Shown: piece by piece, positions 1 to 59,484 of the stretch | How the letters are laid out: each line of letters begins with the position of its first letter | How positions within the stretch are numbered: the stretch's first letter is position 1 | Assembly (NCBI GenBank): GCA_010405405.1 | Contig: MU004237.1 | Span: 662,014 to 726,013 of the forward strand | Reading direction: 5' to 3' | DNA length: 64,000 nucleotides | Source: Microthyrium microscopicum | Lineage: Eukaryota; Ascomycota; Dothideomycetes; Microthyriales; Microthyriaceae | The notes under the pieces: generated by a model | The model's database searches: none | What the model saw: the letters and a program-made list of their open reading frames with translations, nothing else | What the model was told of the DNA's origin: nothing | Made by a program: the position numbers and the translations under genes

Positions 1-625
1 TCGCCAAAACAATCGTTCGTGGAAATTGCCTACCAGTGCAACTGATTCCTCAAGGGACCCAAATACATTCCATTGGCTCCATGTCCGCAAGGGGAGCGGT
101 CTTTTGTCGCAGCGCGGGTACATACGCAACTGTACTGGGTAGAGATGAATCTTCAGCAGAGTTCAAATACATGGTGGTACGGCTACAAAGCGGAGAAGTC
201 CGAAAGGTGTCGAAGAACGCGTGTGCGACGATCGGTATAGCAAGTAATCCAATGCATCAGTATCGCCAGCTAGGAAAGGCTGGTCGGTCGCGGTGGTTGA
301 ATATTCGACCATCGGTACGTGGTGTGGCCATGAATTCATGTAAGCAGAGCGCTCCTTTACGAAATCAAGGAGACGAGGAATATTAACGTCACTATAGGCG
401 ACCATCCTCACGGTGGTGGAAGAGGTAAATCCAAGGGTAATCGTATCCCTGTCAGCCCATGGGGGCAACCGGTCAGTTTCTCCTCTGGTATTGTACTTCA
501 ATCTTCTGATACTAATGACTTCCTAGGCCAAGAGTGGATATAAGACCAGAAAAAAGACAAACGAAAACAAATGGATTGTTAGACCAAGAGAACGGAATCA
601 TGGTAAACGGCGAAGCAAGACTTAA
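1..625 (+). CDS. RML2: Mitochondrial large-subunit ribosomal protein uL2m (3' part)
   Basis: The translation matches the C-terminal half of bacterial and mitochondrial ribosomal protein L2, which binds 23S-type rRNA near the peptidyl-transferase centre. Visible landmarks are [40 protein letters not shown] and SPWGQP. The first base of the window is already inside the gene and the reading frame starts at base 3. Two introns are supported: 340-397 (GTAAGC...TATAG) and one from about 475 to 525 (GTCAGT, CTAAT branch, CCTAG). After the second intron the frame reads [10 protein letters not shown] and ends in a basic tail at TAA 623-625, as expected for L2. The 5' exons and the targeting peptide lie outside the window. 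Confidence 0.93.
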
Positions 626-1634: not shown

Positions 1635-3288
1635 CTACCGATGGAACACTCGCCTATAGAGCACCTGAATGCTTAGCTTATGCTCCTTCTCAGCGAGTGC
1701 TTTACGCTTCTTCTGTCGCTGGATCGAAGCAACAACATCAACAATCAGCTCCTTCTGCTTGGTCTCTATCTCAAGGTATTCAGCTGGAGTCAACGCAGAA
1801 TCCGCCAATGCATCTTGTTGTGCCTTGATGGCATTCGCTTTCCAGGCCTGCAGAAGATCGACGGGAAGCTCATCGTATTGTGCGCTGGTAAGTTTTGGCT
1901 CGGGCTTTGCTGGCTCCTCCTTCGGGAAAACGACTGGCTGAGGCATTGATAGCTGATATTTTGGTTGTTGCTGGCGTTTCGCCGTTGCGGCATCTCGTGC
2001 TTTCTTTGCGGTAGCAGGGAAGAGTTTTGATGCCGCTTTATTCGCGTGGACAGGGCGAGCTGGAGCCGTAGAGCGGTAGTCTTGCTTTTCTACTGGATCA
2101 CCAGCTTTCCGATAAACATCTCGGAGTTGTTTACGAATTTTCTCTGCTTGGGCGGCAGCCTGTTGTCGTTTGACTTCTTCTTGTTGTGTCAACTGCTTTG
2201 CTTGACCAGTAGCGCCTTTGACGGCGCTCTGAGGCTGCGCTCGCCCATGGAGTCTAGGATCCTTTGGTCGTTCGGCAGCTTGGTGAGGCACAGCATCTTG
2301 CTGTTGTATCTGTTCTTGACGATCGGGATGGACATATCCTCGCATGTCGTCCGCTCGTACAGCAGCTTGCTGACGATTGTCTTGCTCCTGACGTTGTCGT
2401 CGATCTTCGACTGAGCGTCGGAGTTCGGCTTCTTCACGTTCATCGGTCTCTCGCTGTCGCTTTCGGCTCATGTCAGAAGAAGGACGTTTCTGGAAACGCT
2501 CATCCAGGCCATATCGACCTGGACCGTAATGGTCTGCGGAATCCCGAAGCATGTCTTCTGCTCGAGCAGATGCATGCCGATGATAATCTTGAGCCCGATG
2601 TTGACGTCGCTCTTCGACCGATTTCCGCGCATCGATGTCCAGATCATACGAGTCCTCTCGCTGTCGCTTGGCTCGAACTTCAGGAGGATTACGATTCTCG
2701 AACCGCTCCTCTGGACCATAACCAGTTGGAGCACGATAGTCGGGGATATATCGGTCTGTGCTGTGCTGTTGGGGACGATATGTATGATTGGCTTTACGCT
2801 GTGGAGCAACATTCTCTTTGCTATGCTGGCCATTGAGTTGAGAAGTCGGCTGGTATGGAGCGTTTGGATATTGCGCAGTGTTCAAATATGAATAGGTGTA
2901 GGATTGAAAGCCATTCGACTCGGTCATCGTAGTTTGTACGCTATATTCGCACTGCTTCGAGGAGCGCATTGCGTTCCCAGTACGTGAGCGTTGCGCATCT
3001 CGATATTCTTTGTCGTATTTGGCGCGCTTCGAATCGTCCTTTAGCACATCATAGGCCTCCCGTATCTGCTCAAACATGCAAGTTAGTGGTTATTCCATCT
3101 ATAGTTGTCCCATGAGAGACGAGTTGGCTTACCTTGCGAAACTCGTATGGGTCGCCCGATGGCTTGTCGGGATGGTGGATTTTGGCAAGTTGACGAAATG
3201 CGCGGCGTATATCCTCCTGCGCCGTGGTGGTTTGAACTCCAAGTTCTTGGTAGTAGTCGCGCACTGGAAGCTGGGCGTCGACAGTCAT
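1635..3288 (-). CDS. J-domain (DnaJ/Hsp40) protein, copy 1 of 3
   Basis: Exons are 3288-3133 and 3065-1635, with a 67-bp intron (GTAAGC...GAGCAG), giving 528 aa. A J domain occupies about residues 10-75: DYYQ-LGV start, helix II RRAFRQLAKI, the essential HPD loop (HHPDK) and, after the intron, IREAYDVL. HPD is the motif by which J proteins stimulate Hsp70 ATPase, so an Hsp70 co-chaperone role is inferred. There is no Gly/Phe or zinc-finger region, so it is class C. The rest is highly charged and Q/R/E-rich, with two copies of a ~58-residue unit (about 168-224 and 237-294) and a C-terminal module beginning DELPVDLLQ. The intron falls between FRK and IREA in phase 0, exactly as in the two neighbouring paralogues. 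The client is unknown. Confidence 0.85.
2340..2720 (-). repeat. Internal tandem duplication in J-protein copy 1
   Basis: Two protein-level copies are encoded at about 2720-2550 and 2513-2340. Both start YG-xERF, pass through KRQRE and SVE(E/D)RRQ, and end with RA(E/D)DM. They are diverged at the DNA level, so this is an old intragenic duplication, not a recent satellite. Confidence 0.7.
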
Positions 3289-5512
3289 TTTGTTGTAAGT
3301 TGTTCGAAGAGAGTAGTTAACTGAAGGAATTGAAGATGTAACTGAATGAGAGCGGTCGCTGTCGCAGGCTAGAGGTTCAATGGAATACCTATCAGATGGA
3401 ACAAAAGAAATTTTGGTGATGTGGAGATATCAGACGAGGAGAAGGATGGTTTGAATGTGATAGGATTGATGAGAGTGATTTAACTGGGACGGGATAAGCT
3501 TTCAAGTATTTCTGCTTGGTGGAATGTCTCGAATGTTGGAAGTTCGTGGTTGTTGTATTCTAGGATGGAGGAGGAATTGGTTCTGATCAAGTAAAGTTGG
3601 TTGCTGATGGTGCCACCTCCCGAAAAACGAATAGTGAAATTGTAGGCCTCGAAGATCCGAGCTCTATGTCAATGGTCACATATAGAGCTTCACCTCGCTA
3701 TTGAGTGCCGAATTCGCGCCGAAGCTGGACAGACCAATGGAACACATGCTGAGTTGAATATAGCTACCTACAAACTCATTGTGGGTCATCTGTCTGGCTT
3801 CCATTGAGCAGCGCATAACAATACGACTGCCATCTGATTCAATAGGACCCCTCAGAAAGAACAATGCTTTATTGCCTTTGTGCGAATTGAACCAGGAATT
3901 TCACGCTCAATGGTTGCGCAACGCCTTGTGATGTCTCTTGCGTCTTAGACTCATGAACATGGTTTGTCCGCTATTCAATGTGATCGTGTCAATATAGAAT
4001 CTTAGTTTGTTCAGACCGTGCATTTCACTTATAGAAAGATTCGGAAAGCCTTTGTTCAAATCATTCTTCTTCCACCAGCTAGGTATATCAGGACACCAGG
4101 CGTCCTCAGCCATAGATATGAGTGCCCTAAGCAACGAGTTCAAGGTAGACATTTTTCCGTAGGAAGACTTAAGAACAACTAGCATGCCACTTTTTGCAGC
4201 GACTGCAAAAAGGAGGATCTGTACCCAGTACACAGCCGTACCCTTAATCTACGAATAAAGCTATCACTTTATCGTTCTGGTCGGTATCCAAAGCTACTGT
4301 AAATGAGAGAGCATAAATGCTGCTATTGTAAAACGAGAACCGAAGATAAATCAAGATAGAAATCCAGGTTCGTTTGCTTTAATTTTGCATGATCGCAGTT
4401 GCCAACAAGACCACGCTATCAGAGCTGCCATTGGTTGGCTGCTTCACTAGCTCCCGCGTTCCCGCTCGGTTGGTTCCGGCACTCCCGGTTAGCGCTTTTT
4501 CCACAACTTCGTCAACATTTGCCGAAATATGAAAACATTTGGGGTAGCAATTGTACGCGTTAAGAATGGGATAAAATGTTCATTTGGGCCAGCCAATCTT
4601 TGTTCGTTATCACATCTCTAAACCTTAAGGTCCGTGCTGCACGTCAATAAGTGCTTCGAATATAACAAGCTCCTCCTCTATAATCTCGAATGTTAGGCCA
4701 TGAGATCAATCAGTTCTTATTACAGCTGCAAACTTGAAAGATATATATAAATGAAGGCAAATCTCAGGTACTAAGCTCTTCTAAGTTTAAGATCACAGTT
4801 TACCTTCAATTCTGCAAGGGTGAGAGTAATGCGTCCCAGGCATCAAGCTAAATATGCACAAGTTCTTTGGCCGAGCAATATAGTCAGTCGTCGGTTTTGT
4901 CGGCTCTTAGCGTCAAGTTGGAAGCTTTTAATCAAAGAAAACTAATTTGCTACAAGCGCTATGATATGAATACCACCGGCAAGCTCTCTCGAGAGCTGCA
5001 TGATGAATTATCAGCTTGGCATCGGCTCCTATTTCTGGTTTTTGTAGATTTGCGAGATGCGCTTATCAAATTCTCCTGCAATAGGTTCAATGAAAATTGA
5101 CAAAAAAACCAGTTACAGTCGGATGTAAATTGTATTTGCATGACATTCGATATCAAATATGCCTAATATCCAACTGCATATAGCAAATAACGCTAACATA
5201 AACATGCGACAAGCTCTTCATAAGTATATTTGCAGGGCAATATCCATCTCTCTATTTGATCAGATGTCCTATCAAGTCATTAGACGTACAATCTCTGGTA
5301 AAGGTCCACTGGTATATATAATTTGACAGGCGGCAACAGCCTTCCCAGTATTCAGCCTGAGGTGGTAAAGCTCAGACCTCTCAATATCCTCGAGCCAATG
5401 ATATATAACGATAAAAACGAATTCAAACTGGCTGATCCTAATAACCCTCCACTATTCCTGTTCAGCTTCCTGGAAAATAATCCTGTTCCGAGCAGTGAAG
5501 GCCATACTGGCC
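3289..5512. other. Intergenic region
   Basis: This is the upstream region of J-protein copy 1 (leader about 3289-3620) and then 1.9 kb without a supportable gene. A 108-codon frame (3907-4233, minus), a 77-codon frame (4867-5100, plus) and a 78-codon frame (5323-5559, plus) show no domain, splice-linked extension or similarity to anything I recognise. The sequence at 4440-4500 is locally GC-rich. Confidence 0.4.
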
Positions 5513-6580
5513 TTAGGAGGATGTCGAAGAGCAAGGGAGATGATGACCATCCACATTAGCTGCTCTATCACCGTAAAGTGACTGCTCCCGCTGCTTGATG
5601 GCAGCGTCAAGAACATTGTGTCGTCTTCGCAATTTCTGTACTAATGGGAGGCGCTCTGCTCTCTCGGCAGTGAAGAATCTACGAGCGTCATGAATTGCTC
5701 GTATCGCGTCGAAGTGCTGCGTTCGTAGAAGAGCTAATGGCAAGTTGTCAAGCTCGTCTTGTTCAGACTGCAGCTCGCTTTCGTTTTGTTCCAATTCTGG
5801 GGTGGATTCTTGTGGTTCATTCTTCATGGTCGCGGCTTGCGGATTTCCAGCATCATTGGCACCGTGCGCTTGTTGTTCACTCTGTTCAGAGCCGGCTTCG
5901 TGAGGGGCAGTGCTAGGACTATCGCCGCGTTGAGTGTCGGCCTCCGCATCGTAAGTCGCGTCTTTCTGCTTGTCGCTGTCCAGATTTGTGCTTTGGGAGA
6001 AATTTGGGCTCGGGTAACTTTCAACTTTCGCTCGCTTATTTGATCGCTTCATAGGATAACTTTCTGGCTCAGAAGCGTCCAGTGTTGCCTCGCCAGATAG
6101 AGCTCCGGGAATCTTCCGCTTTTGTGGTCGTGGTATATGCCCCTCAGATCCTAGAGCACCCGCAGGTTAGTAAAAGTCATTGTGCTGGTTGGGGGATAAC
6201 GTGGATATCTCACTAGTTGATTGACAACCACTGGAGGGCCGTTTCTCTTTCTCGCTCTCGACATTCGACTGATCTATGTTTTCGGAGTCGGCGACATGTT
6301 CACTCTGACCCCACCGCCGCCAACACTTGACCTTCGCCCTCGCGGTATCTCGTATTGTCCGAGCTTTCTGAAGGCTTTTCAAGACTCTTATGGCCGCCTT
6401 AGATCGTTTTGTGCGCTCATTGCTATGGCGTGGTATGTCTGCAGTTTGTCGCTTCTCTGCTTTTCGTCTCGCCTCGGCGGCCTGTCGAGCTTCCATTGCT
6501 TTTTGAGCTTCTGCAGCTAATCTTGACTTCGCTGCCTGCTCTATTTCTGCTGCTCGCCGAGCTCCCGCCTGCCGCTCGGC
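5513..6580 (-). pseudogene. Downstream half of J-protein copy 2, beyond an in-frame stop
   Basis: Directly after the TAA at 6581-6583 the same frame continues open as an A/E/Q/R-rich helix to 6214. It then crosses a well-formed 63-bp intron (6213-6151: GTGAGA, TACTAAC branch, CTCTAG) and runs on to a stop at 5513, adding about 334 codons. The end of this stretch contains LDNLPLALL, the same module found at the C terminus of copies 1 and 3. It is therefore the ancestral C-terminal half of the gene, now cut off unless the stop is read through, edited, or a sequencing error. Confidence 0.6.
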
Positions 6581-7521
6581 TTATGCTGCTCGTTGAACAG
6601 CCACTGAACGTCGGATATCTGCCACTCGTTGAGCTTCCGCAGCCTGTTGTGCTTCAGCCTGCCGTTGAATCTCCGCGGCGCGCTGCTCCTCAGCTCGGCG
6701 TTGAGCTTCAGCTTGTCGCCTAGCTTCAAATTGTTTTATAGCTTCAGCTTGTCGTGCCTGGGACTGTGCTCGGGCCTGGCGCATAGCTTCAGCTTGTCGT
6801 ATGGCTTGAGCCTGTCGCATTTCTTCAGTATGTCTTCTAAACTCGGCCTGTTGCCGAGCATCATCAGGGAAGAAAGCATTTGCTTGCTGAGTTCCAAAGT
6901 AATCATGCCCCGCGCCACCAAAGCCTGTTGAGCCAGACCTTGCCGAAGGCGGCTGTTGATAATAACCGCCGTATCTGTCTTCAAATCCTGGACCCGGTTC
7001 TTGGTCAGGTCCCCGATTTCCCGAGGAGTAGAAATTGGAAGGTCGATCGCGCGGCGGACCGCTGGAAGGTTTGCTTGACTGCTCAAATGAAGAATAGAAC
7101 TGATTGGTAGTAAAGCTGTAATATCGCCTAGGTTCATCGTCAGGGGTGGTCGAGCGGGTTTTTCGTTGACGTTGCGCTTCTTGTTCTTCTCGGTATGCCT
7201 TTTGGCGCATTTGGACAGTCTCATACTGTCGATCGTATCTTGGGCGCTTTAAGTCGTCTGTCAAGACATCATGGGCTTCGCGAATCTACCGACGTACGTT
7301 AGCGCAGTCAAAACGGAACTTTCCCCTTCACCTGGGTAAAGTCTCTTGCTTACTTTGCGGAAGTCATGGGCGTCGCTGGGTGCTGCAGCACCTTGCTTAT
7401 CTGGATGGTGTATCTTTGCGAGTCGTCGAAAGGCGCGCTTGATATCCTCGCGCGTGGCGGTCTTTTGCACTCCGAGGGCTTGATAATAATCATTGAATAA
7501 TGGTTGAGGAGGGGAAGACAT
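6581..7521 (-). CDS. J-domain protein, copy 2 of 3 (truncated by in-frame TAA)
   Basis: Exons are 7521-7354 and 7285-6581, with a 68-bp intron, giving 290 aa to the TAA. The J domain is at about residues 10-80: [20 protein letters not shown] and, across the intron, FRK then IREAHDVL, with the intron again in phase 0. After a Ser/Gly/Tyr-rich linker, the protein becomes a long A/E/Q/R repeat (RQAEA, RRAEEQ types), predicted to be a coiled coil or single alpha-helix. An Hsp70 co-chaperone role is inferred from HPD. The stop interrupts the helical region: the frame stays open for another ~1 kb including a proper intron. Either a shortened protein is made or this copy is becoming a pseudogene. 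Confidence 0.75.
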
Positions 7522-8396
7522 AATGAAGCGTTACTGAGTGACTAGTAAAAGAGTAGTGCTGAGGGATTCTAAATTGGGCAGACCCGAGTCGCGAGCTGAT
7601 AGCTGGTCAGTGGTAGCTGAAGATGTGGATGTGATAATGGAGGGTTTGTTTATAAGAGTAGGCGACAATGTGGAAAATAGAACAGGATCAAATTAAGGCA
7701 CTGAATTATGCTTCGCGTATTGGGGTATGGCGGTTGAGGGGTTCTGTGGACTTGGAGGGAAAGTAATCCGGTAACAATGGTAAAAGCTGGTTGTTCAGAT
7801 GAGGATTTTCTACAGGTGGACAGTTTTGGGGCCTTGATGGCCAAAGCTCTATCTTGCACTCACTTATGAAACCGTCACCTCAAAACTGCCGCCATGTTGT
7901 CTTGATGGCTGTTACATGGGGAATCGTCGGTGTTGATTTCGGTCTATGCTGGTTTTTCAGGTGCTTCAACTCACCTCGATGCTCATTGCACTCCTGATTC
8001 TGCACCTCCCAACCATCGATGGTGGTAATCAAGACCCGCATTTCTGCGATTATCGCAGTCTGCTAGGCTTGTGTCTTGATTATAGAGACCCAAGACAGGT
8101 CCATTACCAGAATGTTGATTTCATGGTGTACAGAGTTGAGATAGAAAAACTGCAATGTGCAAACCTAGCTGCAGATCACGCTACACTTGATCGTTCCCGC
8201 GCCAATGTGGAAACTTACAGCTACTTTTGAATACTGGTCGATCAACATTGTTTGTAGTATGTACTAGCAAGTAAATCAGATTATCATTGAATTTAAAGAT
8301 GGAGTCACAGGCTGATTTTTGATTGGCTCAATGCACGGGTAGTCCCGCTCGGCCCGTTCCGACCACACCAACTAGCATGGTCGATATCCAACCGTA
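7522..8396. other. Intergenic region upstream of J-protein copy 2
   Basis: It holds the presumed promoter and leader of copy 2. A plus-strand frame at 7946-8230 (94 codons) starts with a hydrophobic stretch resembling a signal peptide and has three cysteines, but nothing else supports it as a gene. Confidence 0.35.
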
Positions 8397-8405
8397 ATTC
8401 AGAAA

Positions 8406-8492
8406 GGTTATCTCTAAATATCCACAGCCCTTTTGTTAAATATCCATAGGCCCTTTTACTAAATATCCACAGCGCTAACAGATCTAGATATA
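8406..8492 (+). repeat. Left terminal inverted repeat of the Mutator-like element
   Basis: 87 bp beginning GGTTATCTC, an exact reverse complement of 11438-11524. It contains three tandem copies of TAAATATCC(A)-type units starting at 8415, 8437 and 8460 (spacing 22-23 bp), which look like iterated transposase-binding sites. CpA dinucleotides are intact here, unlike the interior. Confidence 0.92.
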
Positions 8493-11437
8493 CTAACCTA
8501 AATAGGAAATAAATATAAATTATTAAGTATTGTTTTATAGGTTAAACTAAAAATTAGTATAAAATATTAAAGTTTTTACTATAAATAAAGCCTATGGGAC
8601 TAGTTTAGTAGATTAACTCCTATAATAGTAATTTTATACCTAAAATACGCTTCTAAAGAGATCTATTTCTTTTATATCCTATTACTATTTTTATATTCTC
8701 CTATATCTATTTCGTATCCTATCTTAAAGCTATTTTTAGTAGTATTAGTAGTTATTATATAGAGCATCCTAGTAGTCTAAAGGGAGGTTATTTAATAGGT
8801 CTTTCTTACTTCTTTAGAGATACTAGTATTATAGTATCTTCTTATTCTTTACGTAGTCTTCCTTACTTCTATATAGAAGAAACTAGTATAGTAGTAGTTA
8901 AAGTTATAATAGTACTATCTTATAAAGTTATCTTAGTAGTAGTAGTAGATATTAGCAAAGGAATTAAAGCTAAAGCTAATCTAAAAGTAGCTAACTATTA
9001 CTCTAATCTTATAATCTAAGCTTATAGTTTAGCGTTCTTATTATCTACAATTTTAGTAGTTAGCTTTATAGATCATTAAGAGCAAGCTAGCGTTAAAGCT
9101 AAAGTTAAAGCTATAGTAGTAGTTATATGCTACAGATTAGCTATAAAATTAGCTATAAGACTAATAAGATCTATAATATTTGCCTCTATAGCTACAATAT
9201 TAACTTAACGTTACTTAGTAAGTAATTCTTCTTCTAGAATTAACTAATTATCCTATTTACTATTAGCTACTTTAGCTATAGCTATAGTATCTACTACTAT
9301 AGTAGTTCTTCTAATAGAAAGTTTATATAAAGATAGAATTTAACCTATTAAAGCTTATAGACGTTAATTCTATAATACTAAAGAACGTCTACTAATAGAT
9401 ACTTATATTAGTAGTAGAATTTATAGAGAAGAAGTAAGAGCTTATTCTTTAGGTCTAATAATATATAGTAGTAGAGGAATATTACTAACTCTAGACTTAA
9501 TTTAATTATAATACTAGTACGTATTAATATTAGTCTTTTAAAGCTACTATTTATCGTTATAGAAGAGATATTCTTTAATTATATAGCTATAAAGTAATTC
9601 GTAGATAGAATTAAAGTATTTAGTATATTCTATTAGTAGTTCTTTACTTATAACCTCTCTCTTCTATTTATAATATTACTTTATAACCTCTTTTAAAGCG
9701 TAAGTACTAATATAATAGTAGAATAAGAAGGAAAGAATAGAAAAGTTCTTTTACTTTAAAAGTGCTAGATTCTTATTAGAATCCTTACTAACTTTAAGAA
9801 TTAGATACTTAATTTACTCCTTAATAGCTTTAAGGATAGTATTAACTATATAAAGCATATTTCCTATAGAATAGATTTATAACTTTAAAACATAATAAAA
9901 ACCCTCTAATAGTAATATTATAGTATACTTATAATGCTTAAATTTAAATAAGAATATAAGGCATAATTAATCTTTAAATAGCATCTAGGTATTATCTAAA
10001 TATTTAATAAATCTACAACTCTAAAGATTATTAAATTACTATTTTAAGGCGTTCTACGCTTTATCTAGTTAAGTCTCTATTAGGACGTCTATAACTTACA
10101 AATTTATTAATAAAACAACTATTTAAAAGAGGAAGATTTAGCTTATCTTTAGCTATATATTAAATACCTTATCTTATTTTTAAACTATAGTAGATTTAGC
10201 TATATAATTAAAAGCATTAGTAGCATTAAAGATATTATAAATATAGTCTCTAACGTTCTCCTTATAATAGTATTAATAGATTATTTAACAAAAAGGAATA
10301 TAATCTTAAAGGGCGTTTTTTAACGCTTTATAAGAATTAGTAAGAATAATATTTAGAAGCTTTATTATAGAACTAAGGCCTTAAACGACCTAATTAAAAG
10401 CTTTAAGAGCCTACTAATATTCCTCTTCTAATTCCCTTATTATAAAATAGAAGCTAACTAAGAAGTACTTATAAATAGCTATTCTTATACTAATATAGAG
10501 TAGTAGTATTTTATACTAATTAGTCTTATATATTAAATTAAAGAGTAAAATATTAAGATAAACGTAATAGAGAGTAATTTATACCTTTATAGTAATAAAT
10601 AGGCTTCTTAAATATAAATTATCTAGGCATATTTTAAAGATAAATTCTTTATATTATTCTAATTTATTAAGAAGTATTTCTAAAGGGGTATAGCCTACTA
10701 ATTAATCTAATTTTATAATCTAGTAAGCATTATAAATATCTAACATTTTTAGTTTTATTCCTAGAAATTTATTATAAAGTTTAGTAAGAATTTCTTATAG
10801 ATTAGTATAAGATTTATATTCCTCTTTAATCTCTATATAAATATTAAAAAGTAGTATATCTTAGCATTAAATTAAAAGAATAGAAGTAGGAACTAAGAGA
10901 GAGTATAAATAAGAATTACTATTAATAATAATCTTCTATAATAGCTCTCTTAGTAGAGTAGGATTATTAGTAAAACGCATATCTTAAAGATATAGTTTAA
11001 AATAATAACTATCTTTTCGTAATTTAGCCTAATAGATACTAATTAATTTAGAAATATATATACTATATTTTAAGTATTTTAGGTAAATATTTTAATAGTT
11101 AGCATTAGTACCTTCTAAGGGTAACTTTCTAGAGATTTAAAGTCTATAACTATATTCTTTCCTATATTTTTTATATACGTTAATAGCATCTTACTAGGTC
11201 TTATATAAAATATCTATTAGTAAGTTATTAATAGGATCGTAGTTATTTATAGTAGTAGTAGTTAAAAATTAGTATAGTAGTAGTTAAAAACTTAGAAGAA
11301 ATTCAAGATATTATAGTAAAGAGGTAAAGTTAGATAATTTACGCTAGTAAGTTATTTTAGTAAAATAATAACTATTTTGGGTTAAGATTTAGGGCTATGG
11401 CCCTAAGACTAGCTATGTTAGGTTAGTAGTAGGGTAT

Positions 11438-11524
11438 TATATCTAGATCTGTTAGCGCTGTGGATATTTAGTAAAAGGGCCTATGGATATTTAACAAAAG
11501 GGCTGTGGATATTTAGAGATAACC
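11438..11524 (-). repeat. Right terminal inverted repeat of the Mutator-like element
   Basis: An exact inverted copy of 8406-8492, ending GAGATAACC directly before the 9-bp target duplication. About 85 bp internal to it (11350-11437) is also less AT-rich than the core. Confidence 0.92.
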
Positions 11525-11810
11525 ATTCAGAAACATCTCCAAGCACTAACATCATTAATTCATCTTTCAGATTCGCATGCTGATACATAGTCTCATTGCA
11601 ATATGTTTACAGTCAAGGGTATCATGAATGTTGAAGCCACACAGTGTCCACATAAAGGCTATTGTCATCCTGGCCGGGGTGCGAGTGAATACATCCTTGC
11701 GCAGCAAAGCTGTGGTTCTTCATCTTCATGCTATTGTACACGCTCATGTGGGTAATCTCTTTAGGCATTTCCATCGCAGCCCTCGAAACACCCTGACAGC
11801 CTTCCATAAT

Positions 11811-12710
11811 CTACCATGATGCAGCAGACCAGTGTTGGGGCCCCGGATACGGTATAGACGAGGAGGTAGAATAGTTACCCTGGTTATGAGTTTCATCCAT
11901 TGCGGCATATCGTCGATGAAGTGCTGCCTCAAGATTCATAAGTCGCCGTTGAAGCTCATTCGCACGGACAGAGTAGCCTGTTCGCCTATAATGAGCCATC
12001 ATGCGTTCGCACTGCAACGCCACTGCATGCTCCTGGCGCTGGGCTTGTAGCGTGGCTAGCGGCATGTTGTCCAGTTGTAGGCCTTCAAAAAGCTGTTGGC
12101 GCTGCCTCTCTTCCTCCATGGCAATATTTTGATGACGCTGAAGACGCTCTGCCTCAATGGCAGCCGCCCGCTGACGCTCTTCCTCGGGAGACGGAGCTGA
12201 TGACCGGTGGTTCTCCTTCTGTTTGGCGGCTGCTCGTCGTCTCTCCATCTTCTTGTCATGTCGCATTTGTTTGGCTTGAGCAGCGGCTTTCATTCCCTGT
12301 GCTCTCCTGCGGGCTTTCTTTTGCTTCTTTGACTGTCCTCGTTGGGTTTGAGCCGTCGCTTGCTGACTTGTCGTCTTTTGCCAGCTCGTGGGTTCCGTCA
12401 TGTTTTCTTTGACTTTCGCATGCTTGCTGTCGTATTCCGAGCGTGTTGAATCTTCTTTCAGGACATTAAAAGCTTCTCTAATCTAAAATAAAATCCCGTC
12501 AGCGGACTAACAGTCGAGTGTTGTCAACTGTTCTCAGCCAGTGTTGCTGCTCACCTTTCGAAATGCGTCACCAGAGGCGTCGGGCCCATTTTTGTCTGGG
12601 TGGTGTATCTTTGCCAGGCGATGAAAAGCCCTCTTGATTTCTGTTTTCGTCGCGCTCTTCTGGAGCTCGAGATCTTGATAGTAGTCTCTGGTTGATGGTT
12701 CTGGATGCAT
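11811..12710 (-). CDS. J-domain protein, copy 3 of 3
   Basis: Exons are 12710-12555 and 12482-11811, with a 72-bp intron (GTGAGC...ATTTTAG), giving 275 aa. The start gives MHPEPSTRDYYQ, in register with the starts of copies 1 and 2. The J domain (residues 9-75) has [15 protein letters not shown] and the FRK / IREAFNVL junction split by the same phase-0 intron; the first exon is 156 bp, identical in length to copy 1. A very basic K/R/Q segment follows (about 95-150), then an E/R/Q coiled coil and the C-terminal LDNMPLATL module. The KKQKKARRR-type clusters could act as nuclear or nucleic-acid-binding signals (inference). This is the shortest of the three copies and lies beyond the transposon. 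Confidence 0.82.
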
Positions 12711-13245: not shown

Positions 13246-15431
13246 CTACAGTTTGGCTGCTGGCTTGTCCAATGACGGGAGCAGAATGTCCCTCATATCG
13301 CCAGCGGCCTCGTTCAGGTAGAATGACATGCGCTCAGCACCAAGGCCCTTGCAGACGACGTTGAATTGGATGCTGTGCTCATTGATCATATAAGCGAGAC
13401 TATCATGATGTTAGCTATCATATTCTTTGCAGTTACACAAGAGTGCTGCTTACCCAAAGCCATCGTCAATGACTTGGCTGTAGCCCCAACCATTCAAATA
13501 CTCGCTACTTAGCTGAGATGTGGAAAGATGCCACGAACCACTATAACTGAAAGCTGGATCTTCAAAAACGGCTGGCACCTTCTCGCCCTCCTTCAGGCAC
13601 TTCTTCAAACCGAACAAGTGTCTGTCTACACCACGCCCATCACTGGCATCGCCCACATACTTGACATGAGCGTCTAGGGCCTTGCGAAGCAAAGTAACAC
13701 ATTGCTTGGCGTCAACATTGGGGTTCGCCATTGCCTCACAGAATGCAACGCTCTCGTCGGAAACGGTACGAGCTGCCTCCGTGCGGCCCATTTGGAAGCG
13801 ACGAGTGGCGATGGATTCGTAGGTCGGGCGGCTCTTGTTGAACATCTTGTGGTAAGCAAGCTGCATAATCATCTGTACATAGGCGTCTGGCGAGGCCTTG
13901 AACTTCTTGATCAGTCCCTTTCCGTAGCCCTGGTATGCCTGCACTCGAAGCTCATGAGCAGCAAACTGACCATCGAAGTGTTGTCGAGCGGCGTCGAGGT
14001 CGGCTTGCACTTCCTTGTTTACAGTGAATCGGATTGGTTGGGGTTCTGGGAGATTGCTTCTGACGTTCGTTGCGTCAAAGTCGAGAGCGTTGGTGGAGAG
14101 CTGCATGAGAATGGTGTCGTTGAGGCGGTTGGTAGGCGTGCCATCCATCATGCTATGCTCGCCCAAGAAGCCCGCGGTGCCGTTGTCGTTGATGATGAAT
14201 TGAAGAGGTTTGTCGAACCAGCGGTTGCTGCCGTCACCGTGCCAGTACTGGTGTGCCCGCTCCTCTAGGGTAATGGGAGAGGCGTCATCAAGGCAGATGA
14301 CGAAGGAAGCTGATTCAATCATCTCCAAAGATGCAAGATTAGTGCTGGAGGCGGCAATGAGACGCTCACGATCCTACAAAAAAGGTTAGTGTTCGATTCG
14401 GCCCTGTGATGGGGGAAGAAACACGTACATCAGCCCACTTGTCTCGGTTTTCACTGGTCAGAACGCCAATAGGAGCACTTCGCTCAGCTTTCTTGTACAC
14501 TCTGCGGAGTTGAGCTTCAAGCTCAGCGGTATTTAGCTGCTTGCCATCTACCTCGTGCAAGACTTTGAAGAACTGGTTCTTGCGTATGACCACGATATGA
14601 GCATTTTTCTTATAGTCGTACTTCTTGCCCCCGTCAACCGGCTTTGTGGGAATGCGGGAGTAGTTGAACATGTACTGGTAGCTGCTCATGGCGATGGGTA
14701 GTTTCCGCATATACTCAGGCTCGAGAGTGCCCTCATCCACCTGTTTCTTAAAAGCAAGCACAGCCGTGGAAATAGCAGCGGCACGCTTGGCCGGATCACG
14801 GCGTTTTCGATCATCACGATACGAGTAGAAGTAGCTAACGTATGGGATAACTGGATCACGATAGCCCAGATACGCCGCGTCATTCCACCAATCGATGATC
14901 CAGTTCTTTGTGTTTTCGCGTTTCGCTAACAGACGACTCTGGAGTGCTTCACCCTGTCCTCCTGGTTGTAAGAATTCCTGTACAGCTTTGGTGCTCTGCT
15001 CAAACTCGGACTCGCTGAGAAGAGGATGTAAGGACTTGAGATATCGCTTCGCCGTTTCTTCTAACGATGGTACTGGTAGTCGTGGGAGAGACTCTTCGAA
15101 GCGGAGCATGGGGCCTTTGGAGGCATCCTCCTTGTATCCTGAGCTTGCATGTTAGCTGCTGTTATCCAAAGTATGAAGAAGCCATAGGCTCTGCTATGGT
15201 ATACATTACACACCTGCTGGCAGTTTTGACGCAGCGCGGGGAGCCATTGTGGGAGTCTGCTCGAGGTATGTCAGTCTTGTGCCTGAAGGAAGCACCTGCG
15301 AATCATGAGGCTCGACGTACCTGTGCCGCTGTATTTGAAGCTGCTACACTTGGATGAAAAGCACGTTGAAGTTTAACATGTATAGTTGGCCTGCTAACAG
15401 CTCTGGCCAGGTAATTGAATGTCGGTCGCAT
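13246..15431 (-). CDS. Carnitine O-acetyltransferase, mitochondrial and peroxisomal
   Basis: Exons are 15431-15321, 15256-15214, 15138-14429, 14373-13454 and 13399-13246, giving 645 aa. The choline/carnitine acyltransferase family transfers acetyl groups between CoA and carnitine, moving acetyl units between peroxisome, cytosol and mitochondrion. The catalytic His lies in GEHSMMDG (about residue 361), and the N-terminal part carries the family block LPRLPVPSLEETAKRYL. Exon 1 encodes a 37-residue presequence rich in Arg and Ser with no acidic residue, typical of mitochondrial import. A second Met (15247) begins a form without it. The protein ends AKL, a PTS1 peroxisomal signal. This is the layout known for yeast CAT2 and Aspergillus acuJ, where one gene supplies both organelles by alternative starts or transcripts. 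Confidence 0.92.
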
Positions 15432-55997: not shown

Positions 55998-58900
55998 ATG
56001 GCGGGTATTGTACCAATCCCTGAGCCTCCGGCGCTCCCATTCTTGGGGAACATCACAGACATCGACCAGGAGTTTCCATTGGGATCTTTCATCAGAATGG
56101 CAGATACATATGGTAACGATTATCAATGGTTCTTTTCTGATTCCAACTAATGTTCGAGGTAGGAGAGATCTACAAGCTCCACCTGGGCTCTCGATCCATC
56201 GTCGTGATATCCTCTCAAGCACTGCTGAATGAAGTTTGCAACGAGAAGCGGTTTAGCAAGAAAGTTTCCGCAGCTCTATCGGTTCGTAGGCTCTCAGATA
56301 GCTTTGAACAATTGCCTAACAAGGTGCTGTTAGGAAATCAGAAATGGCGTTCACGATGGTTTATTTACAGTATGTTCGACCTTGGCCATTTTCTACCATT
56401 TGTACTGACCGTTTCAGGCCACAGGACCAGAGGAACCAAATTGGGGAAAAGCTCATCGAGTGCTTGTTCCTGCTTTTGGTCCGATGCCAATTCACGATAT
56501 GTTCGACGAGATGCATGATATTGCAAGCCAGCTCGCTCTAAAGTGGGCGCGTCATGGACCATCCCATCAAATTCAAGTGACAGACGACTTCACTCGTCTT
56601 ACTTTGGATACACTTGCACTGTGTGCCATGGACTTTCGTTTCAATTCATTCTACTCTGAAGAACTTCATCCATTTATCGAGGCCATGGGAGACTTTCTAG
56701 TAGAATCGGGGCAAAGGTCAAGACGTACACTACCTGCATTTTGGTATCGGAAGAAGGATCAAAAGTTTCAAGCGGATATCGATATCTTGCGAAAAACTAG
56801 CGACGACGTCTTGAAAGAACGGAAAGCAAACCCCAGCGATCGCAAAGATTTGCTTGGTGCCATGCTCAAAGGCAAAGATCCGAAGACTGGTGAGGGGCTG
56901 AGTGACTCCAGCATCACGGACAACTTGATCACTTTCCTCATCGCCGGCCATGAAACTACCTCTGGCTTGCTATCATTCGTGTTCTACCAGCTCCTCAAGC
57001 ACCCAGAAACTTATCAGCAAGCGCAAAAGGAGATCGACGAAGTCATCGGCACTGGACCCATCAAAATCGAACACATGTCCAAACTCCCATACATCAACGC
57101 CGTTCTTCGCGAAACTTTGCGTCTCTGCGCAACTATCCCTATCATTGCCTTACAAGCCAATGAAGATACTGTAATCGGCGGCAAATATGCCATCAAAGGA
57201 GGCGAACCAATCCTCTGCCTGCTCGCGAAAGTCCATCTGGACCCTGCTGTCTACGGTGAGGACGCCAATGAGTTCGTTCCCGAACGCATGCTTGACGAGA
57301 ACTTTGATCGCCTCAACAAAGAATTCCCAAACTCATGGAAGCCTTTCGGCAATGGAGCACGAGGCTGCATTGGGCGTCCTTTTGCGTGGCAAGAAGCCCT
57401 CCTAGTCATGGCATTACTCATGCAAAACTTCAACTTTACTATGGACGATCCGTCGTACCATCTCAGTTATAAACAGACGTTGACTATTAAGCCTAAGGGC
57501 TTTCACATGAGAGCGAGCTTACGACGGGATATGATCGCCACACAACTTGAGCGCAACCTCATGACATCTATCGACACTTCGGCTACAAAGAAGCGGCCAG
57601 CGACTTCCAATGTTGGCCCCAGCAAGGTGGCTAAAGCAACGGGCAAACCTATGAGAATCTTCTATGGCTCTAATTCAGGAACTTGCGAGTCTTTAGCTCA
57701 GCGACTTGCCACCGATGCTTCTCGGCACGGTTTCCTGGCCTCTACAGTTGATGCTTTGGATACTCTTAATGGGAAGCTGCCAACAGGTCAGCCTGTAGTC
57801 ATCATTACTGCATCTTACGAGGGCCAACCACCGGATAACGCAGCTCATTTCGTGGCTTCGTTGGAAAACCTGAAGGGCGAAGAATTGAAAGGAATAGATT
57901 ACGCCGTGTTTGGATGTGGTGAGTCTCCCTTTTCCTCCTTATGAATTCGAGCTAATGGATCAGGTCATCATGACTGGGCCCAGACTTTTCATCGGATACC
58001 AAAGCTCGTCAACGAGAAGATGGCGGCCCATGGAGCTTCACGAATTGCAGAGCTAGGTCTCTCTGATGCTGCAAAGGGAGACATGTTTACTGACTTTGAA
58101 ACCTGGGAAGATCAACTGCTTTGGCCTGCCATGATCAAGAAGTATGAGATTGATGAGACCAGTCTTGATGAAGGTTTTGAGTCAGCGCTCACAGTCGATG
58201 TCTTGACTCCAAGGTCCTCCACTCTTCGCCAGGACGTGAAAGAGGCTGTTGTGGTTGCAGTCAAAGATCTCACTGCTCCAAGCGAACCAGCAAAGAAACA
58301 CGTCGAGATCAAACTGCCCAGTGACTCGACTTACGAAGCTGGTGACTATCTCGCAATACTTCCAATCAATCCCAAAGAAGTGGTTCAAAGAGCTATGAGA
58401 AAATTTGAGCTTGCTTGGGACTCGCATCTCTCCATTGAAGCAGTTGGCCCAACTCTACTCCCAACTGACTCCACCACTCCAGCTTCCGACGTATTCGGTG
58501 CATATGTGGAACTCGCTCAGCCTGCAACCAAACGAGTAAGCACCACTCACTCACGTCTGTGATTCTTGCAGTATTAACATCACATAGAATATTCTTGCCT
58601 TGATACCATGCACCAACGACCCAACGACGAAGACCAAACTTCAAAACCTCGCCGACGCAGCCTACGCCACTGAAATCAGCGCGAAACGCGTCTCTCTGCT
58701 CGATCTTCTTGACACATTTCCCACCATTTCCCTTCCTCTCGCCTCCTTCCTCTCCATGCTGCCACCCATGCGCATACGCCAATATTCCATTTCTTCCAGT
58801 CCGCTTTGGAATCCGCGCCACGTCACTCTCACGTATGCTGTCCTAGATGCACCTTCCCTCGCAGATCCCGCTGGTCACCGCCATGTAGGCGTTGCATCAA

Positions 58901-59484
58901 ACTATCTGGCCGGACTAGCACCAGGCGACAAACTTCACGTGGCAGTGCGCAAGAGCAATGCAGCCTTCCACCTGCCCCATGATGCAGAGCATATGCCACT
59001 ACTCCTCGTTGCCGCAGGCACAGGCATCGCACCCTTCCGCGGCTTCATCCAAGAGCGTGCAGCACAAGTCGGCGCCGGACGCGCTCTTGCGCCAGCTGTG
59101 CTGTGGTTTGGGTGCCGAGCGCCCGGTGCCGATGACTTGTATGCGGAAGAATTGGCACGCTGGGAGAAAATGGGCGCGATTGAAGTCAGGCGGGCCTATT
59201 CACGAGAGCCAGAAAAGAGTGATGGCTGCAAGTATGTGCAGGATCGCCTGTGGGCAGACCGCGAGCGAGTAGCGCAGATGTGGAAGGAAGGAGGTCGAGT
59301 ATTTGTATGTGGCAGTAGAGAGGTTGGTGAGGCGGTGGGAGATGTGGCGAGGAAGATTATGATGGAGACCGTTAGGGAGAAGGAGATTGAGGAGACAGGG
59401 GCTAGTGATATCAATGAAGAGAGGGCGAAGAAGTGGTTTGAGAGCGTAAGGAATGTGCGATATGCTACAGATGTTTTTGTTTGA
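55998..59484 (+). CDS. Self-sufficient cytochrome P450-reductase fusion (CYP505 family)
   Basis: Exons are 55998-56112, 56163-56281, 56334-56369 (12 codons), 56418-57918, 57964-58535 and 58588-59484, giving 1079 aa, close to the ~1066 of P450foxy. The N-terminal P450 has the I-helix AGHETTSG (about 266), ExxR in LRETLR and the heme loop FGNGARGCIGRPFAWQE (Cys about 406). After a ~40-residue linker, the reductase has the FMN block YGSNSGTCESLAQRLA, the FAD block RQYSISSSP and NADPH-binding GTGIAPFRGFIQE. Such enzymes hydroxylate fatty acids at subterminal positions using NADPH without a separate reductase. There is no N-terminal membrane anchor, as expected. The tiny third exon (EIRNGVHDGLFT) restores the conserved segment before PNWGKAHRVL. 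Confidence 0.93.

Follow-up and report, generated by a model that had tools for sequence, protein, structure and literature searches.

J-domain proteins (JDPs) that carry an HPD motif stimulate the ATPase activity of Hsp70, and according to the relevant part of PMC13254874 those of class C have only the J domain in common with classes A and B. A fungal protein of this kind (type III) is Mrj1 of Cryptococcus neoformans, which the passages of PMC7373193 devoted to it describe as having a C-terminal coiled coil and orthologs in few genera. Here we describe three clustered JDP genes, referred to as A, B and C, in a stretch of 64,000 nucleotides of the ascomycete Microthyrium microscopicum (contig 8, MU004237.1, positions 662014-726013, of a 36.9-Mb genome in 20 contigs), which is called the window below. 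The three genes probably, at roughly 70% by our own estimate, go back to old local duplications of a single J-domain co-chaperone gene of the class C type, with a coil and a terminal helical hairpin as the putative specificity part. The reading is supported by the fact that the J domains exceed the Pfam cut-off and carry HPD, form one clade and keep the C-terminal module.

By its description, Mrj1 resembles the A/B/C proteins as a coil-bearing type III J protein of a fungus and differs from them in being mitochondrial and in having a J domain that is not N-terminal (PMC7373193, same passages). The likeness to class C proteins in general is that the HPD-bearing J domain is the only recognised domain of A, B and C; what sets these three apart is a C-terminal hairpin module of their own, lacking a library match, and their occurrence as clustered paralogs. 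Among the literature matches listed we found no description of the A/B/C family or of clustered fungal J paralogs, which is no proof of absence.

Gene models and class assignment

The first-pass annotation had described three same-strand genes whose HPD-bearing J domains are split by a phase-0 intron between FRK and IREA, and this is what the gene models contain, on the minus strand. Gene A (1635-3288; exons 3288-3133 and 3065-1635, intron 3132-3066) encodes a protein of 528 amino acids and gene C (11811-12710; exons 12710-12555 and 12482-11811, intron 12554-12483) one of 275 amino acids. Gene B (5513-7521; exons 7521-7354, 7285-6214 and 6150-5513, introns 7353-7286 and 6213-6151) comprises a J domain, a G/F/Y-rich stretch, a Q/A/R/E-rich coil with an in-frame TAA, a charged region and the module. 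The J-domain introns of A, B and C measure 67, 68 and 72 nt, respectively, run from GT to AG and have CTAAC or CTGAC inside; the second intron of gene B (63 nt) is also of the GT..AG kind.

The DnaJ family of Pfam (PF00226) was recovered with 64 bits in A, 71 in B and 64.6 in C, at a curated cut-off of 27.8, and HPD is located at residue 39 (A), 39 (B) and 37 (C). Up to an E-value of 0.1, DnaJ was the sole Pfam family in A, in C and in both pieces of B. None of the three shows the zinc-finger-like or beta-sandwich substrate domains of class A within the same limit, nor the C-terminal domain family of canonical class B in Pfam. The combined content of G and F per 60 residues amounts to at most 7% in A and at most 5% in C, so that these two, having DnaJ alone and no G/F-rich stretch, fit class C. 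What speaks against one common class is the linker of gene B, the only one of the three with a G/F-rich stretch: from residue 141 it reaches 30% G+F over 60 residues (G/F/Y maximum 38%, as compared to 18% in A and 13% in C). Non-canonical class B combines a J domain and a G/F-rich region with an unrelated C-terminal domain, and judging by composition gene B could be classed there.

Relationship of the J domains

By our count, the 30 exon-level DnaJ matches in the genome represent 27 places, 24 of which were included in a J-domain tree; this tree omits C2:576457, whose match contains a stop, and the partial matches C4:2704989 and C1:2912290. Although 17 of the 21 inner branches of this tree were unresolved, A, B and C fell on one side of a single branch (support 96/87) that was present in 96% of 200 bootstrap trees. 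When A, C or residues 1-216 of B, a piece that ends before the module, served as the query of a genome search, the best matches beyond the query's own gene were in each case the other two. The J domains are thus not each closer to genes elsewhere in the genome, and the earlier proposal of a local family holds: the comparison supports A, B and C as one local paralogous family, whose members have no closer J relatives than one another among those found in this genome.

The argument by which the first-pass annotation had arrived at duplication, namely the identical intron position, did not survive. Introns were read at ten further J loci of the genome, and those of C3:685044 (FQV|IGEAY) and C5:2207930 (FQK|LGRAY) are of phase 0 and occupy the same alignment position as in A, B and C, while neither gene groups with these three in the tree. 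The shared intron was therefore discarded as evidence for local duplication. In all, the J-domain intron occurs at this position in at least five of the 27 places, A, B and C included; in our splice reading the intron of C6:1358808 lies 2 nt away and in a different phase. The gene at C5:2207930 (L010; G000:C5:2206000-2211000) is comparable to the A/B/C genes in its N-terminal J domain, its phase-0 intron position and its long charged coil, which is very long and rich in K, Q and E; it differs in having a Cys-rich C-terminal end in place of the module and a J domain outside the A/B/C clade.

Over the 73 to 77 codons compared, the nonsynonymous divergence (dN) between the J domains is 0.28-0.35, and the synonymous divergence (dS) is 2.07 for B-C and past saturation for A-B and A-C. 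On this basis the J domains are old and constrained, with free divergence limited to the other regions. The earlier characterization of a fast-diverging set consequently applies outside the J domain and fails within it.

The C-terminal module

The motifs DELPVDLL, LDNLPLALL and LDNMPLATL, which had been noted at the C-terminal ends, are all present, in the stretches 1638-1910 of gene A, 5516-5773 of gene B (3' of the stop) and 11814-12131 of gene C, each on the minus strand. Identity over the module stretch amounts to 34% for B-C, 27% for A-B and 18% for A-C. In leave-one-out profile comparisons the copies scored 22.9 (A), 37.7 (B) and 29.6 (C), with shuffle maxima of 18.4, 16.2 and 15.9, respectively. 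Because every copy thus exceeded all of its 300 shuffles, the module is beyond chance, and the similarity proposed earlier is better than that of shuffled coil sequence. The pairwise scores were 61 for B-C, 46 for A-B and 31 for A-C, reached by 0, 13 and 331 of 6000 shuffles, respectively, and by 0, 3 and 347 shuffles when the heptad pattern was kept. With the register fixed and the 11 motif columns removed, 16 (A-B), 21 (B-C) and 809 (A-C) of 20000 shuffles reached the observed score. When 2671 open stretches of the window and of fetched DNA were scanned in all six frames, A, B and C came out on top with summed scores of 423-441, followed by L010 with 127.

A different explanation of the similarity would be convergence in coil composition, leaving the J domain as the sole shared part, and several observations count against a homologous module in this way. 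Taken alone, the A-C similarity is weak, as seen from its shuffles. As a control, we used 178 coil-like, overlapping segments of 70 residues (step 10) from the window and fetched DNA, from which L004 and L006 as well as segments holding the listed module words had been removed; with gaps allowed, the A-B score was reached by five of them with A as query and by three with B. Moreover, the A module scores 54 against the coil of L010, above its score with B, and the B module reaches 66 with an antisense stretch of L025, above its score with C, this stretch having been picked beforehand as the best match to the B module elsewhere in the genome. Long coils and picked matches can yield such scores when gaps are allowed. 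Because some unrelated stretches match the gapped scores, the membership of A is carried by the tests in which gaps were excluded or the register was fixed and by the profile comparison, and in ungapped comparison none of the 178 coil segments reached the A-B score. The B-C score was reached by a single segment, with C as query, which in our reading is a part of C that overlaps the C module. Given these results, the profile scores and the position of all three modules at the C-terminus, convergence is decidedly unlikely, and we take the module to be homologous in A, B and C, judging by sequence, with A as the weakest member.

The module was not identified in the libraries searched: no Pfam row was better than E 0.018, and there was no NCBIfam match and no credible PDB match, the profile returning a single PDB row (8hcy_C, E 2.9). 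The weak Pfam rows, each obtained with one of the three members, were taken as chance (DUF465, E 0.018; Lin0512_fam, 0.076; Phage_tail_C, 0.12; FliD_C, 0.14). Queries with A, with C and with the B module revealed no additional copy in the genome; distant copies can be missed in this way, since even the modules of the three genes did not find one another in these searches. An extra match of the B module at C2:3568277 (E 0.24) is antisense within a gene, presumably that of eIF3a, and was taken as chance. A scan of viral contigs with the module alignment gave 38 pattern matches and no relative.

AlphaFold models led by the B and the C sequence (mean pLDDT, the model's own confidence score, 76.3 and 75.1) both consist of three helices with a break at N-L/M-P, on which the module is modelled as a helical hairpin; it weakens this agreement that both models use one set of three sequences and are not independent. 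The predicted layout is similar to that of ribosomal protein uL29, as seen in the fold match rows, and the module might accordingly be imagined as a divergent uL29 fold through which the J protein would attach to the ribosome or act as a mimic of uL29. The module differs from uL29, however, in showing no sequence-profile similarity above shuffles: the hhalign score with PF00831 was 9.2, and 147 of 300 column shuffles scored at least as high, in a comparison whose power control worked. Pfam gave no PF00831 row for the module up to E 10, with filters that drop most weak matches. As the fold rows were not backed by the profile comparison, the uL29 relationship was rejected at the level of sequence, and we consider the docking reading very improbable. 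A wider proposal, in which the hairpin would serve as a new docking domain, possibly uL29-like and facing the ribosome or RNA, that defines a fungal J-protein family, and in which a common docking site with differing coils would let one Hsp70 serve several clients from one place, is very improbable as well.

Integrity of the cluster and its surroundings

Codon 291 of gene B is an in-frame TAA (6583-6581, minus strand) within the Q/A/R/E-rich coil region, 5' of the module. It lies beyond spaced 18-nt direct repeats (6661-6852) that code for part of the coil. We found no frame-keeping intron across the stop with GT..YAG borders, a length of 45-220 bp and a consensus-like donor. Relaxed rules (GT or GC donor, any AG, 40-300 bp) allowed 357 combinations, and in those with a GT donor the vicinity of the acceptor contained no word resembling a branch site. 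The frame beyond the TAA stays open for 334 codons, through the second intron to the module, for which the chance is ~4e-7 by base composition; the stop is for this reason recent, polymorphic or an assembly error. The expected product of gene B in this assembly has 290 residues, with the J domain, the G/F/Y-rich stretch and coil and without the hairpin, and the gene would be either recently truncated or wrongly assembled.

Between B and C, and not part of the gene family, lies an AT-rich (23% GC), degraded DNA transposon without assigned strand (8406-11524). It has terminal inverted repeats of ~100 nt and a 9-base duplication, ATTCAGAAA, on both flanks; duplications of 9 bases are typical of Mutator-like elements. 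Its TpA/ApT ratio of 1.61 suggests repeat-induced point mutation. Another pair of such termini with similar spacing occurs at G000:C7:1898509-1901603. Downstream of gene A, at 714-964, there is an element of ~250 bp resembling a miniature inverted-repeat transposable element, with perfect inverted repeats of 30 nt. The transposon, the stop and the second intron of gene B were absent from the first-pass annotation.

The stop in B and the mobile elements between B and C and beside A would also be consistent with a decaying cluster, in which B has become a pseudogene while A and C persist as weakly constrained relics after a transposon invasion. This is unlikely: A and C have uninterrupted reading frames, B is open far beyond its stop, the TpA/ApT ratio of the genes (0.54-0.68) is that of the window between 16000 and 64000 (0.65) and not that of the transposon, and dN in the J domains is low relative to dS.

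The cluster is flanked by an open reading frame with a ribosomal protein L2 C-terminal domain (window positions 36-383) and by a carnitine acyltransferase gene (13453-15109). At 56460-59484, a cytochrome P450 is followed in frame by a flavodoxin, with a further open reading frame downstream, which looks like a P450-reductase fusion.

Returning to the three probable duplicates of a class C-type co-chaperone gene, their J domains are intact, their linkers differ and the homologous C-terminal module is kept in all of them. In this arrangement the J domain would stimulate the ATPase of an Hsp70, and the charged coil with the terminal helical hairpin would be the specificity part, holding the protein at a partner, a client or a place in the cell, to which Hsp70 would thereby be recruited. 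The general view is not changed by this, as coil-bearing fungal J proteins limited to few genera are already known, by the description given of Mrj1 (PMC7373193); the kind of J protein is a known one, and its module has no name in the libraries searched. The specificity of J proteins lies largely outside the J domain, and a clustered set that keeps its terminal module while the coils diverge constitutes a small natural experiment on the role of that module.
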